Shown: positions 7,257-41,300 of the stretch, in pieces
How positions within the stretch are numbered: position 1 is the first letter of the stretch
Layout of the letters: each line of letters opens with the position of its first letter
Source of the DNA: Microbacterium rhizomatis
GTDB taxonomy: Bacteria; Actinomycetota; Actinomycetes; Actinomycetales; Microbacteriaceae
DNA length: 64,000 bases
Direction: 5' to 3'
NCBI RefSeq assembly: GCF_008710745.1
Contig: NZ_VYSA01000001.1
Coordinates: 1,488,001 to 1,552,000, forward strand
Translations under genes and position numbers: made by a program
Notes under the pieces: model-generated
What the model was told of the DNA's origin: nothing
What the model saw: only the letters and a program-made list of their open reading frames with translations
Databases searched by the model: none

Positions 7257-8471
7257 CTACGAGACGCCGAGCTGTCCCGAGAGGATCATGACGGCCGCGC
7301 CGCGCAGGACGATGTCCTGGCCTTGCCCCGTCATCCGCACTCGCACGCCGTCGTGGAACTCGGCGAGCGTCCGGGTGCGCAGCGTCTCGACGGTCGCCTC
7401 GCTGAGGGGTCCGTCGAGAAGTTCGGTGGGGCCGGAGAGGATGATCTCCGACAGATCCAGGGCCCCCACGACGGGGGCGAGGGCGATGCCGAGCCGCTCC
7501 CCCGCGTCGCGCAGGATTCCGTCGCGCGCGGCCGAGTCGGATGCCCCGGCCAGCCGCGCCGTCAGCTTCGGCACCGCGAGCCAGGCCTCGAGGCAGCCGA
7601 CCTTGCCGCACACGCAGACCGGGCCGCCATCGGTTCCGACCGTCACGTGGCCGATCTCACCCGCGGCGAAGCGACTGCCGCGCATGGGCTGACCCGACGC
7701 GAGCAGGCCGGAGCCCACACCGCGGCCGACCTTGACGAGCAGGATGTCTTCGTCGGCGCCGCCGAAGGTGTATTCGGCGAGGACGGCGGCGTTCGCGTCG
7801 TTCGCGACGAGTACAGGCAGGCCGAGCGCTTCGTGCAGCGCGCCCTCCAGGTCGAAGTCCACCCACCCGAAGCCGGGCGCGGCGAGGATCACGCCTCGGT
7901 CGTTCACCACACCGGGCGTGCCCACGCCCACTCCGAGCACGGGCGCGTGCGACTCGGCGACCAGCTCTCGGGCGAGGGCGACGACGGTGCCCACCACGTC
8001 GTCCGTGGGGAGCGGCACTTCGCGTCGGACGACGATGTCGCCGTCGAGCGTGAGCACCGCGCCGATGAACGAGTCGCTGCCCGACAGGTCGATGCCGACG
8101 ATCCGGTGCCCCGCACGGTCGAGGTCGACGAGCATGGCGGGTTTGCCGGGGCCGGATGCCTCACGCACGCCCATCTCTGCGACGAATCCGTCGGAGATGA
8201 GTTCGCCCACCAGATCGGAGATCGTGACACGGGTCAGGCCCGTCTCGCGGGCGAGGTCGGCGCGGCTCATGGCGCCCTGGTGGAAGAGCAGCTGCAGCAC
8301 GAGGGAACGGTTGTGGCCTCTGGCGTGCTCGGGGAGGACCTTGCCGCCGTGGCGGAGGGCACGGCTGGGGACGACGGAACGCGCGGCCGAAAGCGTGCTG
8401 CTCAGGGGTGCGCCGACGCTCGGGCGCGGGTCGAGGGTGGATGAGCCGCGGTGCGTTTCCGACGTGGACAT
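7257..8471 (-). CDS. ROK-family (NagC/XylR type) transcriptional repressor
   Basis: A 404-residue regulator. A variable N-terminus of about 50 residues is followed by a winged helix-turn-helix (HNRSLVLQLLFHQGAMSRAD, then GLTRVTISDLVGELISDGFV) and a ROK sugar-binding domain with GVGVGTPGVVNDRG, GHVTVGTDGG and the zinc motif CVCGKVGCLEAW. It is the first gene of a run of genes on one strand for sugar uptake, phosphorylation and deamination. ROK repressors of this kind bind a phosphorylated or free amino sugar and release DNA. A palindrome touching its own start codon (8471-8499) suggests autoregulation. Confidence 0.92.
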   Translation of the reverse strand: MSTSETHRGSSTLDPRPSVGAPLSSTLSAARSVVPSRALRHGGKVLPEHARGHNRSLVLQLLFHQGAMSRADLARETGLTRVTISDLVGELISDGFVAEMGVREASGPGKPAMLVDLDRAGHRIVGIDLSGSDSFIGAVLTLDGDIVVRREVPLPTDDVVGTVVALARELVAESHAPVLGVGVGTPGVVNDRGVILAAPGFGWVDFDLEGALHEALGLPVLVANDANAAVLAEYTFGGADEDILLVKVGRGVGSGLLASGQPMRGSRFAAGEIGHVTVGTDGGPVCVCGKVGCLEAWLAVPKLTARLAGASDSAARDGILRDAGERLGIALAPVVGALDLSEIILSGPTELLDGPLSEATVETLRTRTLAEFHDGVRVRMTGQGQDIVLRGAAVMILSGQLGVS

Positions 8472-30752: not shown

Positions 30753-30823
30753 TGCGCGAGACCGGATAGGCGCCGCGAAACCGTGGGCTTTTGCCCGTGT
30801 CTCGTGGCGCGTATCCGGTCTCG
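30753..30823. terminator. Long imperfect hairpin between purH and the LacI operon
   Basis: CGCGAGACCGGATA (30753-30766) and TATCCGGTCTCGCG (30810-30823) pair exactly. Most bases between them also pair, up to a GGGC-TTTT-GCCC tip. It lies 29 bp beyond the purH stop. Likely a strong terminator or a REP-like intergenic element. Confidence 0.65.
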
Positions 30824-30851
30824 CGGACTGAAGAGGGAGATCAGCGCGGAA

Positions 30852-34710: not shown

Positions 34711-36174
34711 ATGAGCACAGAGACAACAACCGGTCAGCGCTCCGCGCCCGGCCCCCGCAACGGGTTCGACCGATTCTTCGACATCACCGGCCGGGGCTCG
34801 ACCCTCGGCACCGAGATCCGCGGCGGCGTGGTCACTTTCGTCACGATGGCCTACATCGTCATCCTGAACCCGATCATCCTCTCGAGCGGGACGGATGTCG
34901 CCGGAGACCGGCTGCCCTTCGGCGCCGTCGCGGCCGTCACCGCCTTGACCGCCGGCGTCATGACGATCGTGTTCGGCCTGGTAACGAGGCTGCCGTTCGC
35001 CTTCGCCGCCGGCCTCGGGATCAACTCGTTCCTCGCCGTCAGCGTCGTGGGGCAAGTGACGTGGCCCGAGGCGATGGGCCTCGTGCTCATCAACGGTGCG
35101 ATCATCGTGATCCTCGCCGCGACGGGTCTGCGGCGCATGATCTTCGACGCCGTTCCGCTCGCCCTCAAGACGGCCATCACTGTCGGCATCGGCCTGTTCA
35201 TCGCCTTCATCGGGTTCGTCGACAGCGGCTTCGTCACATCGACCGGATCGAGCTCGCCCCCGGTCGGACTCGGCGAGGCGGGCTCGGTGGCGACGGTGCC
35301 GACGCTCCTGTTCGTGCTCACCCTGCTGCTCACCGCCGTGCTCATGGCACGGAAAGTGCGTGGAGCGATGCTGATCGGCCTGATCTCGGGAACCGTAGCC
35401 GCCGTCATCGTCGAAGCGATCTGGCACCTGGGGCCTCGCGTGGGAACCGACGGCGCGATCAACCCGAACGGCTGGTCGCTGACGGTCCCGACCATCCCCG
35501 GGAATCCGTTCAGCCTCCCCGATCTGAGTCTCATCGGGCAGGTCAGCTTCGGCGGCTTCGAGCGGATCGGCATCCTCGCCGCGACGATGCTCGTCTTCAC
35601 CCTCGTGTTCACGAACTTCTTCGACGCGATGGGCACCATGACGGGGCTCTCGCGCGAAGCCGGCCTCGCGAACGAGAAGGGCGACTTCCCCCGCCTGCGC
35701 TCGGCGCTCATCGTCGAGGGCGTGGGCGCGGTGGTCGGCGGCTACACCTCGTCGTCGTCCAACACGGTGTTCATCGAGTCGGGGTCGGGAATCGGCGAGG
35801 GCGCACGCACGGGCGTCGCGAACATCGTCACAGGGCTGCTGTTCGTGCTGGCGATGTTCTTCACGCCTCTGACCACGATCGTCCCGACCGAGATCGCTTC
35901 AGCGGCGCTGGTGATGGTCGGCGCGCTCATGATGGCGCAGATCCGCCACATCGACCTGACCGAGCTCTCGGCGCTGATCCCGGTGTTCCTGACGGTCACC
36001 GTCATGCCGCTGACCTACTCGATCGCGAACGGCATCGGCGCCGGCTTCATCTCGTGGGTCGTGATCCGGTCGCTGTCCGGCCGCGGGCGTGAGATCAGCC
36101 CGCTCCTGTGGATCGTCGCGGCCGGGTTCGTCGTGTTCTTCGCCCGTGGCCCGATCGAGTCGCTGCTGACCTGA
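34711..36174 (+). CDS. NCS2-family (AzgA-like) purine permease
   Basis: 487 residues, about 12-14 membrane segments. Family motifs: GVVTFVTMAYIVILNPIIL at the start, AGLGINSFLAV, FTLVFTNFFDAMGTMTGLSR with the substrate-binding region, and the TSSSSNTVFIESGSGIGEGARTG-type motif (in part: SSNTVFIESGSGIGEGARTG). It imports adenine, guanine or hypoxanthine with protons. ATG at 34711 with GGAGG 6 nt upstream. Divergent from the purNH operon, consistent with purine salvage beside synthesis. Confidence 0.93.
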   Translation: MSTETTTGQRSAPGPRNGFDRFFDITGRGSTLGTEIRGGVVTFVTMAYIVILNPIILSSGTDVAGDRLPFGAVAAVTALTAGVMTIVFGLVTRLPFAFAAGLGINSFLAVSVVGQVTWPEAMGLVLINGAIIVILAATGLRRMIFDAVPLALKTAITVGIGLFIAFIGFVDSGFVTSTGSSSPPVGLGEAGSVATVPTLLFVLTLLLTAVLMARKVRGAMLIGLISGTVAAVIVEAIWHLGPRVGTDGAINPNGWSLTVPTIPGNPFSLPDLSLIGQVSFGGFERIGILAATMLVFTLVFTNFFDAMGTMTGLSREAGLANEKGDFPRLRSALIVEGVGAVVGGYTSSSSNTVFIESGSGIGEGARTGVANIVTGLLFVLAMFFTPLTTIVPTEIASAALVMVGALMMAQIRHIDLTELSALIPVFLTVTVMPLTYSIANGIGAGFISWVVIRSLSGRGREISPLLWIVAAGFVVFFARGPIESLLT

Positions 36175-36202
36175 GACGGGATGCTGCGGCATCCCGTCTT
36201 TC
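36174..36202 (+). terminator. Intrinsic terminator of the purine permease gene
   Basis: AGACGGGATGC and GCATCCCGTCT pair perfectly around TGCG, followed by TTC. The stem begins inside the stop codon. The 135-bp duplicated segment starts directly after it, at 36203. Confidence 0.85.
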
Positions 36203-36337
36203 GCGGTCAGTCGGCGATGGGCTCGAGGACGAAGACGGCGATCTGCCGATCGGTCTTCGTCTGGTAGTCGGCGTAGGCCGGCCACGCCTCGACCGCGTAA
36301 CCCCACCACTCGGCGCGCTCATCACCCGAGACCTCGC
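36203..36337 (-). repeat. Left copy of 135-bp direct repeat (3' end of nitroreductase gene)
   Basis: Identical to 37842-37976 except one base (G at 36234, T at 37873). It holds the last ~43 codons of the deazaflavin-dependent nitroreductase gene, its stop and 4 bp beyond. As it abuts the permease terminator it probably is the original chromosomal gene end, displaced by an insertion. Confidence 0.93.
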
Positions 36338-36344
36338 TCACGTC
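36207..36344 (-). pseudogene. Truncated 3' fragment of deazaflavin-dependent nitroreductase
   Basis: Encodes the C-terminal [18 protein letters not shown]...VFVLEPIAD of the gene at 37846-38286. An in-frame GTG at the new junction (36344) could allow a 45-residue peptide beginning VSEVSGDE, but no ribosome site is evident, so I treat it as a gene fragment. Confidence 0.75.
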
Positions 36345-36461
36345 GGACCAGTGTGTTCAGAACTTAAGTTATAGTCAGATGCGCATTGTGGTTTCTGGTA
36401 TATCTCGGCCACGACAGTGTGCACGTAATAGACGATTCGGCGCGAGGAAGTAGGGTCCGAG

Positions 36462-37418
36462 ATGAAGATGAGATCGAAACTCCATAGAGCAGTTGCCACC
36501 ACGGTTGCGACTCTCTCCTTGGCGGGCGGTGCCGTCTTCGCGCCTGCGCCTGCCGACGCGGAAGTTGCGTACGTTAATGCCAATCCGTGTGATTTCTCCG
36601 TTCTCATCGGTGTGCGCGGATTCACGGCACCATCAGGAACCGGCACATCAGCTGGGGGACACGGTTGGACTTCGGGCGGGTACGGCGATGTTCCCCAGTC
36701 GGTTGTCAGTTCGTACAATAGAAACTGGAGTTGGCCCACTTATGAAATAAGTCTGAATTATGACGCCTCAATAGTTTCGCCCATACAAGTGTGGGATGGT
36801 GCGCAGCACCTGGCGGACGAAATCAACTGGTATGCAAATACCTGCGCATACGGCCCGGCTATTCTCCTTACCGGACACTCTCTTGGTGCGGCCGTGATCA
36901 TCAACCTACTGACGAATGCCGACGAGTATCTCACTGAGAAGTCTCGCGTGATGGTTCGCAGCGTTCAATTGTACGGAAGTCCCATGTTTTACGCACCCGG
37001 GAGATCGTGGAGCAGTGGCACAAACTACGGCCAGGGAATCTTCGCAGCGATGTCGTCGGCGGCTTCCAACGAGGCAGTGACCGCGAGTATCAATGCAACC
37101 TTTGGGGCGGGATTCATCGAGGATAACTGCTACGCCGAAGACGGGTACTGCCAGTCAGGGCGAGCGCTGGATAACGTTGCCCACAATCGATATGCGAACA
37201 ACGAAGCAGTCATGGGCGGATACAGCCTCGGGGAAAGGCTGAGAGTAATGACCCGAGGCACACCCCGCGACGGGGCGACTGTGGAACCATCTGCGTACTC
37301 GCTCCCGGCTCCAGGGTCCGGGGAACTGCCGAATGTAGCACTGATAACGCCCCGCAATGCCAGCGAATATGCCGACGAGATCGCTCAGATGACGCATATC
37401 CTTCGGGAGCAGCGATGA
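36462..37418 (+). CDS. Secreted cutinase-like serine esterase
   Basis: 318 residues with a signal peptide (MKMRSKLHRAVATTVATLSL, cleavage near ADA). Mature protein begins with the Cys and strand of cutinases (NPCDFSVLIGVRGFTAPSG). Nucleophile elbow TGHSLGAAV (Ser), Cys-flanked Asp region NCYAEDGYC, and His in VAHNRYAN complete the triad order of cutinases. It probably hydrolyses an ester outside the cell, but the substrate (polyester, lipid, envelope ester) is not clear. Codon use is AT-richer than the neighbours. ATG 36462, AGGAAG/AGGG region upstream. Confidence 0.75.
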   Translation: MKMRSKLHRAVATTVATLSLAGGAVFAPAPADAEVAYVNANPCDFSVLIGVRGFTAPSGTGTSAGGHGWTSGGYGDVPQSVVSSYNRNWSWPTYEISLNYDASIVSPIQVWDGAQHLADEINWYANTCAYGPAILLTGHSLGAAVIINLLTNADEYLTEKSRVMVRSVQLYGSPMFYAPGRSWSSGTNYGQGIFAAMSSAASNEAVTASINATFGAGFIEDNCYAEDGYCQSGRALDNVAHNRYANNEAVMGGYSLGERLRVMTRGTPRDGATVEPSAYSLPAPGSGELPNVALITPRNASEYADEIAQMTHILREQR

Positions 37419-37428
37419 GGAGATATTA

Positions 37429-37791
37429 GTGGTTACGAAGCCTATTGATACTTCTCGGCGGCGCTCCGGGTACGCACTCGAAGCGCTGCCGGGAATCATC
37501 GTTCATCTGCTCGGATCCGTAGCCGCGTGGACCTTTGTTCAGGTAAATGGGCTCATGGTGGCAGGATGCGGAGCGGAACGGACCTGCAACGCGACCATGA
37601 CCGACCTCGCCGTCAACGGAATTCAGCCCGCGCTCATAGCAGTGTGGGCCGTGACAGCTCTGCTCTCTCTCGCCCGGGCGCTTGCATGGAGGCGAAGCCC
37701 CTGGCGAGTGCTCGGCATAGGAATGGGAGTATCAATTCTCATCACCGGGCTGGCCTATTTGATGCTGAGAATCGGTGCGGGAGTCCAATGA
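37429..37791 (+). CDS. Small membrane protein of the island
   Basis: 120 residues, GTG start with GAGGAG 7 nt before, 10 bp after the esterase stop, so cotranscribed. Three hydrophobic segments: ALPGIIVHLLGSVAAWTFVQ, LIAVWAVTALLSLARAL and VLGIGMGVSILITGLAYLML, with two Cys in the first loop (AGCGAERTCNA). Unknown function; a partner or protective protein for the esterase is possible. Confidence 0.65.
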   Translation: MVTKPIDTSRRRSGYALEALPGIIVHLLGSVAAWTFVQVNGLMVAGCGAERTCNATMTDLAVNGIQPALIAVWAVTALLSLARALAWRRSPWRVLGIGMGVSILITGLAYLMLRIGAGVQ

Positions 37792-37841
37792 CACAGTGAC
37801 GTCCCGGGTCGTCCGGAACCCCCTTCGGATGACGTCCGGCG

Positions 37842-37976
37842 GCGGTCAGTCGGCGATGGGCTCGAGGACGAATACGGCGATCTGCCGATCGGTCTTCGTC
37901 TGGTAGTCGGCGTAGGCCGGCCACGCCTCGACCGCGTAACCCCACCACTCGGCGCGCTCATCACCCGAGACCTCGC
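37842..37976 (-). repeat. Right copy of the 135-bp direct repeat
   Basis: The 3' end of the intact nitroreductase gene including stop codon and 4 bp; pairs with 36203-36337 (134 of 135 identical). Confidence 0.93.
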
Positions 37977-38286
37977 GGGCGAGGTAGTCACGCGTGACGG
38001 CGCCGTCCTGCAGCTCGACGTGCGGATTCTTGCGCATGTTGGCGCCCCAGCGCGGCTCGTCGGGGGCGCCGCCCTTCGACGCGACGACGGCGTAGCGACC
38101 GTCGTGCTCGACTCGCATGAGCGCGGTCTTGCGCAGCGCGCCGGTCTTCGCGCCGACGGTCGTGAGGACGATGATCGGCTTGCCGCGCAGCTCGTTCGCC
38201 TCGGTGCCGCCCGACGCCTCGAACTTCTCGGCCTGCACGCGGGCCCATTCGGCGGTGCTCGGTTTGTACTCTCCGGTCAATGGCAT
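37846..38286 (-). CDS. Nitroreductase family deazaflavin (F420)-dependent oxidoreductase
   Basis: 146 residues, DDN-like split barrel. Motifs: [20 protein letters not shown] with [20 protein letters not shown], and [18 protein letters not shown], both typical of this family, which uses reduced F420. ATG 38286 with AAGGTGAAG. It starts only 29 bp after the stop of the giant surface protein gene with no visible terminator, so read-through is possible. Its 3' end appears to be the integration site of the adjacent island. Confidence 0.9.
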
Positions 38287-38315
38287 GACTTCACCTTACG
38301 ACCGCCGGCGACGGG

Positions 38316-41300
38316 TCAGGCCCGGCGGCGACGGCGACCCACGAGCATCCCGCCCGCGGCCAGGAGCATCAGGCCCATGAGGAGCGCCGGCACCATGTCG
38401 ACGCCGCCGGTGGCGGGGAGCGCCACGACGGGCACCACCGGGGGTGCGGGCGGCACGACCGGCTCGACCGGGACCACCGGCACGACGGGGATGACCGGCG
38501 TGACGAGGTTGATGTAGACGTTGCGGGCGACGGCGTGGTCGTACAGCGGGTCGTCGCTCGAGACGATGTGGCTGACGGTCTGGACGCTCATGCCGGGCTG
38601 CGGCAGCGGCGACGGGAAGGCCAGCGCCAGGAGGGCGACCGGGTGGTGGTCGCCGCTGCCGGCCTTCAGGCGCACCATCACAGTCTTGGGCCCGACCTCG
38701 CCAGGCTCGAAGATGAGCACGACCATGTCGGCGTACGTGAGTCCGCCGTCGATCGAGATCTCGGCGTACGGCTCGCCTCCCGCGTAGGCCGACGAGATCG
38801 TGATGTAGACGCGTTCGATCGACGGGGCGCCGAGGGCGATCGTGTAGCTGTCGGTCTCTTTCACCCCGCTGATGAGCGTCGTATCGCCGTCGGTCTCGAC
38901 GATGATGATCTCTCCCGGCCCGACGGGGCGCGAGGGCAGCGGGATCACGAGCGGCGGGGGTGGCAGCAGCATCTCGCCGGCGAGACCCACCGGTGGCACG
39001 GGCACGAACGGCCCCGAGACGATCGTGGGCGCCGGGAGGTTGTAGAGGTTGACGTTCAGCCCCGCTCCCGTCACGTGCACGATGGTGGAGGTGATGTCGG
39101 ACGCGGGGCCCGTGGTGTAGACCGTCGCGACCGAGGAATCGACCCCGCCGTCCATCGAGACGAGCGCGTTCTGACGCCACGTCGCTCCGTCCGCGAGCCG
39201 GCTCGCCAGCAGGCGGAAGGTGTCGGCGCCGGTGTTCGCCTCCATGCGCAGCTCGGCGCCGTTGCCGTTCACGATGAAGTGGTCGTCGCCGGCTCCGCCG
39301 TACAGGGTGGTCGGTGCGCTGATGCCGGGGCTCGCGTAGCCGAATTCGGTCGGGATCGTCTCGAACGCGTCCTGCGGCAGGACGTTCGGGGCGATGCGCG
39401 GCGTCGCGAAGAACTGCCCGACGATGAAGGTGTCGTCGCCGTCGCCGCCGTTGACGGTGGTGAGCACGGTGGTGTCGTCGAAGACGAACGTGTCGTCGCC
39501 CTCATAGCCGTTGACCGTGAGCCGCGCGTTGATGCCCTCGTCGTAGACGACGCGCTCGGAGGTGCCGTCGACACCGCCGATCTGCGTCACCGCAGCGGGC
39601 CACTTCGCGTCGGGCTGGCCCGCGATCGCGGGAACCGCCCGGAACAGGAAGGTGTCGGCCACGTCGGTGCCGTCGATCGTCAGCGTGTTGAGCCCCTGCC
39701 GGACGCCTCCGCCGCGGACGATCACCTCGTAGTCGTGCGTCACGGTGTCTCCACCGCCCCACGTCTGGATCTGGAACACGTTGTCGCCGCCCTGCCCGAA
39801 CAGCACGAGCGAGTCGCGCACCTCGGTGCCCGCGAACGGGTCGCCGGCCGGGGAGATGTGCGTGCCGGTCATGTCCTGCAGCATCCACACGATGAACAGG
39901 TCGCCCGCATCGGGTGCGCCGTCCTTCTCGCTCGCGCTGCCGTAGACCAGCGTGTGGCCCCCGAGCAGCGTGCCGAAGAAGAAGAACGCGTCGCCACCGG
40001 CGCCGCCGAAGATGCGCGTGTCGTGGCCGGTGACGGTGCCGGCGAAGAAGAGGAGCGACGGGATCGGGTCGACGCTGCCCTGACCGAAGGACGCGCGGAT
40101 CGTGACGGTCGCGCCCTCGATGAGCGTGGCCTCGGGGGCGATGACGTCCTGCCCGACGAGGAGGGTGACATCGCGGCCGGCGACGATGCGCCCCTCGGTC
40201 ACCACGACGAGGCCGTCGATCGTCTCACCGTCGGCGATGACGAAGAGGCTGGTCGGGTCGCCGGTGGCGGCGAACGGCACGGTGAGGCGCACGTCGCCGG
40301 TCGTCGCCTCGGCGCGCAGCACCTGCAGCGACCCGGTGGCCTCGGTGATGAAGACACCGGTGGGCGGCACGGCGAGGATGACGGCGCCCGGCGTCGACAG
40401 CGCGTACAGGCGCCCGTAGATCGACGTGTCGATCGTGATGTCGGCCGAGCGGTCGACACTGTCGGCACCGATCGTGCCGCCGACGGCGATGAGGTCGATG
40501 TTGTCGCCGATGACCCGCGTGGTTCCGTCGTCGGCCGAGTTGCGGATAGACCCGGCGCGGGTGCGGAGCGACACGTCGCCGGCGTGCAGGCTGCGGGCGA
40601 GCGAGACGTAGAGGGTGCCGGCGACCTGGTCGAGCAGCACGTCGCCCGCCGCTACCGCGTAGACCGCGCCGCGGCTGGAGAGCGACGATCGGATCTCGAG
40701 GAAGTCCGGGGTCGCGCCCGTCCCGCCGATGTGGCCCGAGAGCGTGCCGGCCAGGAGCGTGATGTTGCGGCCGGCGACGCGGGGGGTTCCATCGTCGATG
40801 GTGCCGGCATCCAGGATCGATGCGGTGTTCTGGAGGGTCTCGAGCCAGACGTCGTCGCCCGTCGAGGTGATCGTGCCGACGCGCAGGTCGGCGATCGTCT
40901 CGAAGTCGTCGATGCGTCCGTTCGTGTACATCGTGATGACGCCGGTGCCGTCCGACGTCGAGTACTGCTGCGACGGGAACTGGCGGCTGAAGAGCGTCGC
41001 ATCGACGTTCGTGAAGGCGTAGAACGAGATGATCGTGCTCGTCGAGGGGTGCAGGACCGTGATGTCGTTGCCCGCGCTGAGATCGGTGAACCGGTACCCG
41101 CTGTTGACGAGTTCGTTGACCGTGCCCCAGGCCACGAGCACGGGGTCGTTGTAGCTGAACGTGCCGTCCGGGTGGAAGTAGGTCTGGTAGACGCCGGAGA
41201 GCGGCGGCAGCGGGCTGGAGATGTTGGGCGGGTTGTAGACGTTCACCTGCACGCCGTTGGACGACATCGGCGCGGCGTCCGACCCGCGCAGGCTGTCGTT

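Follow-up and report, generated by a model that had tools for sequence, protein, structure and literature searches.

Integrative elements that enter genes at their 3′ ends duplicate the gene end, and the gene is restored. Another mode of gene movement, insertion with long target duplication, was reportedly first seen in Helicobacter pylori (by Nobusato et al. 2000, Gene 259:99), and Furuta et al. 2010 (NAR 38:2428) are said to treat it as well. Passages of three articles present it as a suggested mode of gene mobility, whose frequent cargo is restriction-modification genes (PMC1643837; PMC3031569; PMC4978471). Transposed genes with flanking repeats are also described in Arabidopsis, where Woodhouse et al. 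2010 argue for excision as a circle and homologous re-insertion (PMC2869330). There the direct repeats correspond to sequence of the empty target, mostly gene sequence, as in the case below for which a circle is likewise proposed, while the setting is a plant nuclear genome and the movement takes place within that genome.

The island described here lies in a stretch of 64,000 nucleotides of Microbacterium rhizomatis (“the window”) and fits insertion with long target duplication. In common with the described cases, it has a gene-size insert, a long direct duplication of variable length and an empty site in related genomes; the difference is that the cargo there is often restriction-modification genes, while here it is one esterase and membrane-protein family, in Microbacterium and at several targets. 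Empty sites are seen for the window (18/60 relatives), at the DrrB target and at L063 (against G060), the repeats are long and variable, and the window insert has neither a transposase or integrase gene nor, by eye, termini in common with other inserts. Restriction-modification genes are absent from the cargo, and their association with this mode is one found in the literature, not a strict criterion. Of the marks of an integrase-driven genomic island, a nearby recombinase (PF00589 search) and a shared att core were both lacking. The features of the locus are as follows.

34711–36174, plus strand: NCS2-type permease, intact, the convergent neighbour (PF00860, E 3.2e-29)
36203–36337, unstranded: left copy of the 135-bp target duplication, the displaced nitroreductase 3′ end (repeat comparison)
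36338–36461, plus strand: insert leader, 124 bp
36462–37418, plus strand: secreted cutinase-like esterase, 318 aa (PF01083, E 1.7e-8; signal peptide by eye; G-H-S-L-G nucleophile motif)
37429–37791, plus strand: membrane protein, 120 aa, proposed cognate partner or immunity protein of the esterase (three hydrophobic segments by hydropathy; two Cys invariant in the family)
37792–37841, plus strand: insert tail, 50 bp; an imperfect hairpin, GTCGTCCG...CGGATGAC, is visible by eye
37842–37976, unstranded: right copy of the target duplication, which completes the nitroreductase gene (repeat comparison)
37846–38286, minus strand: target gene, an intact F420H2-dependent quinone-reductase-like (nitroreductase) protein (PF04075, E 1.2e-48)

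The two direct repeats are identical at 134 of 135 bases, start 1,639 bp apart and enclose 1,504 bp with a GC content of 57.4%, against 70.1% for the whole window. The right copy consists of the final 131 bp of the nitroreductase gene and 4 bp more, and the left copy begins 28 bp after the permease stop. The insert genes are co-directional, no other gene accompanies them, and the island occurs once in the genome. The locus agrees with the initial annotation, which had described the nearly identical repeats and their origin from the nitroreductase end plus 4 bp, the gene kept intact by the right copy, the lower GC, the secreted cutinase-like esterase with a membrane protein, and the absence of a recombinase from the island. 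At the sole mismatch the left copy has G, the base that prevails among the relatives (42 of 60, the other 18 having C), and the right copy has T, which none of them shows. A promoter scan of the leader gave no match to a sigma-70-type promoter, the tail hairpin was not picked up by a terminator scan, and Rfam matched nothing within 35900–38500. On its other side the nitroreductase gene adjoins an open frame of 8,558 codons (38316–63992), a giant repetitive surface-type protein.

The same gene was compared in 60 genomes of the genus, taken as the best-scoring nitroreductase matches of 198 genomes searched. The permease and nitroreductase genes are adjacent in 18 of the 60, with alignment ends 15–220 bp apart, and 0.5–5.3 kb of other genes lie between them in 26; the order differs in three, and no permease is present within the fetched stretch in 13. 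Within the stretch fetched, none of the 60 has a duplicated nitroreductase end. Because the junction is empty in 18 relatives and the gene end is duplicated in none, the window island is an insertion that duplicated its target, and the same site stands unoccupied in relatives. The comparison of relatives proposed in the initial annotation thus supports the insertion that it had read there. Its placing of the left copy at the original position of the gene end is also borne out: by the alignment-end measure this copy is 39 bp from the permease, near it as in the five tightest empty sites (15–41 bp). The same distance bears on a tandem duplication of gene end and cassette followed by deletion of the second cassette. 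Such a history would account for 23 bp of membrane-protein gene found inside the repeat of another locus (L063, below), but a random deletion would need luck to leave the left copy within the range of those tightest sites, and we consider it very improbable. The junction itself (L076–L135) is a variable spot in the genus.

The esterase and the membrane protein are a conserved module and are consistently paired. Of 366 genus genomes, 19 have a match to the esterase at E < 0.001, and a profile search at E < 1e-15 likewise returns 19 genus genomes, the source genome being included both times; at the family level 32 of 398 genomes match at E < 1e-8, mostly weakly or partially. Three modules are present in the source genome, namely the window module, L057 and L058. 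All 18 esterases of alignment A1 match Cutinase (PF01083), the window esterase with 35 bits against a cut-off of 25.9. The 18 aligned membrane proteins (A2) share two invariant cysteines, and the best family assignment fits at most three of them, all weakly; the 120-aa protein of the window has no match in Pfam (E 0.01) or NCBIfam. In the source genome the membrane-protein profile matches strongly three times, always next to an esterase, and weakly twice, within long frames. A membrane-protein match occurs in 19 of 20 fetched genus loci, L075 being the exception, in a count for which 17 of the 18 profile rows derive from the same genus loci as were scored for pairing. A structure prediction of the esterase from two sequences reached a mean pLDDT of 42.8 and was set aside. 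The solved relatives of Cutinase/CE5 esterases (PF01083) are acetylxylan esterase 1bs9, cutinases and the phage gene 12 protein 3hc7, the last of which we take to be LysB; the similarity is distant, and the difference here is the pairing with an unassigned membrane protein.

Furthermore, long direct repeats recur around these modules. The comparison covered 23 genus loci (the window, L056–L075, L332 and L333; a G157 match of only 34 aa was left out), and seven of them, at five targets, are bounded by direct repeats of 113–247 bp with 94.7–99.3% identity. The lengths are 135 bp in the window, 247 bp at L057 and 113 bp at L058 in the source genome, and 161, 194, 190 and 162 bp at L060, L061, L065 and L063 in other genomes. 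High-identity repeats are absent from the remaining 16, two of which have decayed pairs: an older-looking one at L067 (118 bp, 82%, E 3e-24) and one at L073 (132 bp, 74%, E 8e-21). Among 119 control windows, a left-right match at E < 1e-12 was found in nine, all of 57–77% identity, and close matches at E < 1e-3 in three. Given this background the pair at L067 is likely genuine and that at L073 only possibly so, and weak signals at L068 (54 bp) and L072 (a 29-bp terminator) were dropped as flanking repeats. The other 12 genus loci have nothing comparable to the long flanking repeats. None of eight loci from other genera has high-identity flanking repeats; in one, L194, a 105-bp match of 73% goes to two places.

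Chance, or a general background of repeats, can be set aside as the source of this pattern. A direct repeat of at least 60 bp and at least 88% identity, with 300–8000 bp between the copies, was found in none of 60 control loci (683 kb in total, each centred on a relative's nitroreductase gene), so that 7/23 module loci stand against 0/60 (Fisher p 6e-5); with the DrrB loci counted once the value is 5e-4 (5/19, before the two negatives L332 and L333 were added). A scan of 864 kb of the source genome (about a fifth of it, selected so that the modules were covered) gave just three pairs of direct repeats of at least 100 bp and at least 93% within 10 kb, and these are the pairs that flank the three modules. 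Insert GC is below flank GC in all nine inserts measured.

The targets are varied. Besides the nitroreductase 3′ end (PF04075) in the window, the repeats derive from the 3′ end of an OtnK-like kinase gene at L058, of a DrrB-like ABC permease gene at L060, L061 and L065, of a gene for a small membrane protein adjoining CorA at L063, and of a DeoR-like regulator gene at L067, all four named by eye. The repeat at L057 spans, by eye, the last 12 bp of a hydrolase gene, an intergenic stretch and the 5′ end of a CpaF-like gene; the CpaF-like gene itself looks truncated. Gene 3′ ends are therefore frequent but not required. This bears on the initial annotation, which had taken the 135 bp for an attachment site at a gene end and the island for a kind of integrative element. 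A non-autonomous relative of such an element, whose integrase acts in trans or has since been lost, would target gene 3′ ends and restore the gene, and the repeat does run past the stop codon of the intact gene in seven loci (the window, L058, L060, L061, L063, L065 and L067). Duplicated gene end and restored gene are thus shared with integrative elements; here the integrase was not found, a common core is lacking, the targets are varied and the repeat is not always a 3′ end. A PF00589 search across the whole genome, with serine recombinases outside it, places the nearest tyrosine recombinase on the window contig about 507 kb from the module, the nearest match to L057, a partial one, about 109 kb away, and none on the L058 contig. 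No common sequence, core or arms were seen by eye at the insert termini, the genes used are different and include the 5′ end at L057, the sister repeats differ, and the nitroreductase end is not used in any of the 60 relatives. From the recombinase search, the relatives and the termini, an attachment site at a gene 3′ end served by an integrase was rejected as the main reading, and we regard it as improbable. The same genome has three consecutive tyrosine recombinase genes at G000:C1:746063–748420.

We tentatively favour the reading, to which we would give slightly less than an even chance, that the window island is a mobile two-gene cassette, which would have entered the permease-nitroreductase junction as a circle through one homologous crossover and thereby duplicated the 135 bp. 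The cassette would travel as a DNA circle that had captured a short stretch of target sequence; a single homologous crossover with the same gene in a new cell would insert the cassette with the piece copied on either side, and a crossover between the flanking copies would remove it again. Should the two genes act as toxin and immunity protein, or as a comparable competition module, this would explain why such a cargo spreads. The empty sites at the window and DrrB, the recurrent repeats against 0/60 controls and the low insert GC argue for this reading, and the lack of high-identity repeats at 16 of 23 genus loci and at all eight from other genera argues against it. The strongest and a close rival, quite possible although on balance we doubt it, is the repair of a break: two nicks 110–250 bp apart followed by fill-in and end joining, or a microhomology-driven template switch of a collapsed fork, the cassette being joined or copied into the gap, so that both copies would be the host's own. 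The spread of repeat lengths (113–247 bp) and the absence of a core common to them are consistent with repair, and so is a gene, Ku-like by eye, that lies about 2.3 kb from the L057 module. It leaves unexplained, though, why only esterase modules show such repeats in 864 kb.

The DrrB loci bear on both readings. Of 30 fetched cassette-free DrrB loci, 28 hold the repeat sequence, each of them once. The left neighbour of L060 is present at six cassette-free loci; that of L061 adjoins at two and lies about 700 bp away at a third, and that of L065 is found at none. L060 and L061 are 94% identical in DrrB while their cassettes are far more divergent (esterase 75%, membrane protein 70%, leader 42%), which makes a single common vertical insertion unlikely. 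L061 and L065 resemble each other more (esterase 84%, membrane protein 75%, leader 63%, operon 85–95%) and could share one insertion. That one DrrB end has received two unlike cassettes of a single subfamily speaks for circles that use homology, and break repair does not explain it. On the other hand, measured against relatives, the DrrB repeat copies have diverged no further than the remainder of the gene, and sliding identity along DrrB shows no foreign stretch, so that a donor-derived stretch is not visible. Entry as a circle must therefore assume later gene conversion, while copies native to the lineage are what break repair would leave. In a further test for donor-derived copies, differences by codon position, pooled over eight loci, came to 4/3/14 (p 0.002 against equal), a result that change of the intact gene after insertion explains too. 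At L060, a palindrome-bearing segment of about 100 bp (about 8192–8300) lies between the end of a MacB-like gene and the left copy and is absent from the G040 empty site.

There is a more complicated case. The repeat at L063 consists of the host gene end, 13 bp, and 23 bp of the module's own membrane-protein gene. At the cassette-free site of G060, 19 of these 23 bases are found exactly, the last six codons reading GALNLG and followed by an in-frame stop, and the site in G127 is without this 19-base tail. The G060 arrangement may be the product of a single crossover between two L063 repeats, and a circle crossing into G060 would give L063: a possible footprint of movement, and a point for the circle. 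In a second reading, the tail would have belonged to the target from the start, and about 11 bp of microhomology would have joined it to the cassette, as expected from break repair. The gene end at L064, which is another site, has only TGAACGGsGCGCTGA in common with the L063 gene end (14/15), of which about 11 positions overlap the tail. Matching empty sites were not found for L057, L058, L065 and L067, which counts against the favoured reading.

A related pair lies on a circular plasmid, where the nearest plasmid relative of the cargo is found. The Curtobacterium plasmid pW21 (62 kb, circular; L334 3370–6950) encodes a protein of 1,069 aa with a Cutinase domain at 852–1059, followed by a protein of 130 aa, near TraM-, MobC- and relaxase-like genes. 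This relationship also argues for a circle as the vehicle; that the module itself was never encountered as a circle counts against it. Searches of phages, plasmids and viral contigs gave no match to the window esterase, and the A3 patterns of its relatives gave none in viral contigs; the L068 esterase has one distant plasmid match of 33% identity.

What the pair does is suggested by its long relatives. A large protein with a C-terminal toxin domain and an immunity gene downstream is the layout of polymorphic toxins. In L195 and L197, from other genera, and in L334, the Cutinase domain is at the C-terminal end of frames of 940–1157 residues. A homologue of the module's membrane protein follows in L195 (E 2.4e-9 to its profile), and the small membrane protein that follows in L334 gives a weak DUF6264 match. 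The C-terminal position in long frames, together with the membrane protein after L195 and L334, suggests that esterase and membrane protein are a toxin-immunity pair or a similar competition module. The difference from polymorphic toxins is that the Microbacterium modules are short stand-alone secreted esterases.

The initial annotation had called the use of a protein-gene end unusual. This was too strong, since insertion with long target duplication has already been published for restriction-modification genes. What the present case adds to the known phenomenon is another cargo, another lineage and a recurrence at several targets within one genome; a literature search, with full texts checked in part, found no description of this esterase and membrane-protein module. 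In the widest form of the proposal, the mobile units would be defined by their cargo and not by a recombinase: self-protecting esterase/membrane-protein pairs, relatives of plasmid-borne polymorphic toxins, would have spread through Microbacterium as circles, in which short stretches captured from host genes would serve as homology arms, with entry and exit left to host recombination. As a whole this seems to us unlikely, albeit conceivable. If true, insertion with long target duplication would be a general route for genes of the toxin-antidote type. The present case in any event carries the phenomenon beyond restriction-modification genes, to a second pair of genes that is probably self-protecting. 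One compact family at no fewer than five targets, whose copies are partly fresh and partly decayed and whose close relatives include empty sites, makes the mechanism testable in cultivable actinobacteria.

Some loci have additional features. The closest relative of the esterase (G191; L056 4667–7465) is beside TniB-, DDE transposase- and resolvase-like ORFs, by eye, and flanking repeats were looked for at this module and not found. The insert of the second source-genome module holds a fragment resembling an IS481-type transposase (L057 8584–9015, by eye). At L072 (5767–9476), a complete module is accompanied by a partial module of another subfamily, represented by a membrane gene and C-terminal pieces of an esterase, and two identical 29-bp terminator-like palindromes enclose both. 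Nine other close repeats of 80–90% identity occur in the 864 kb of the source genome. Two are members of a dispersed palindrome, five are in or beside large repetitive genes (by eye), and the last two enclose 1.1 kb (222 bp at 82%, G000:C1:51074–52595) and 3.6 kb (63 bp at 90%, C1:373226–376947). The dispersed palindromic repeat of 72 bp, GCGAGACCGGATAGGCGCC..., gives 19 blast matches in the 864 kb, self and reverse strand included, and its copies include the inverted repeat at 30755–30825 of the window (the same sequence by eye), G000:C1:95035 and others.
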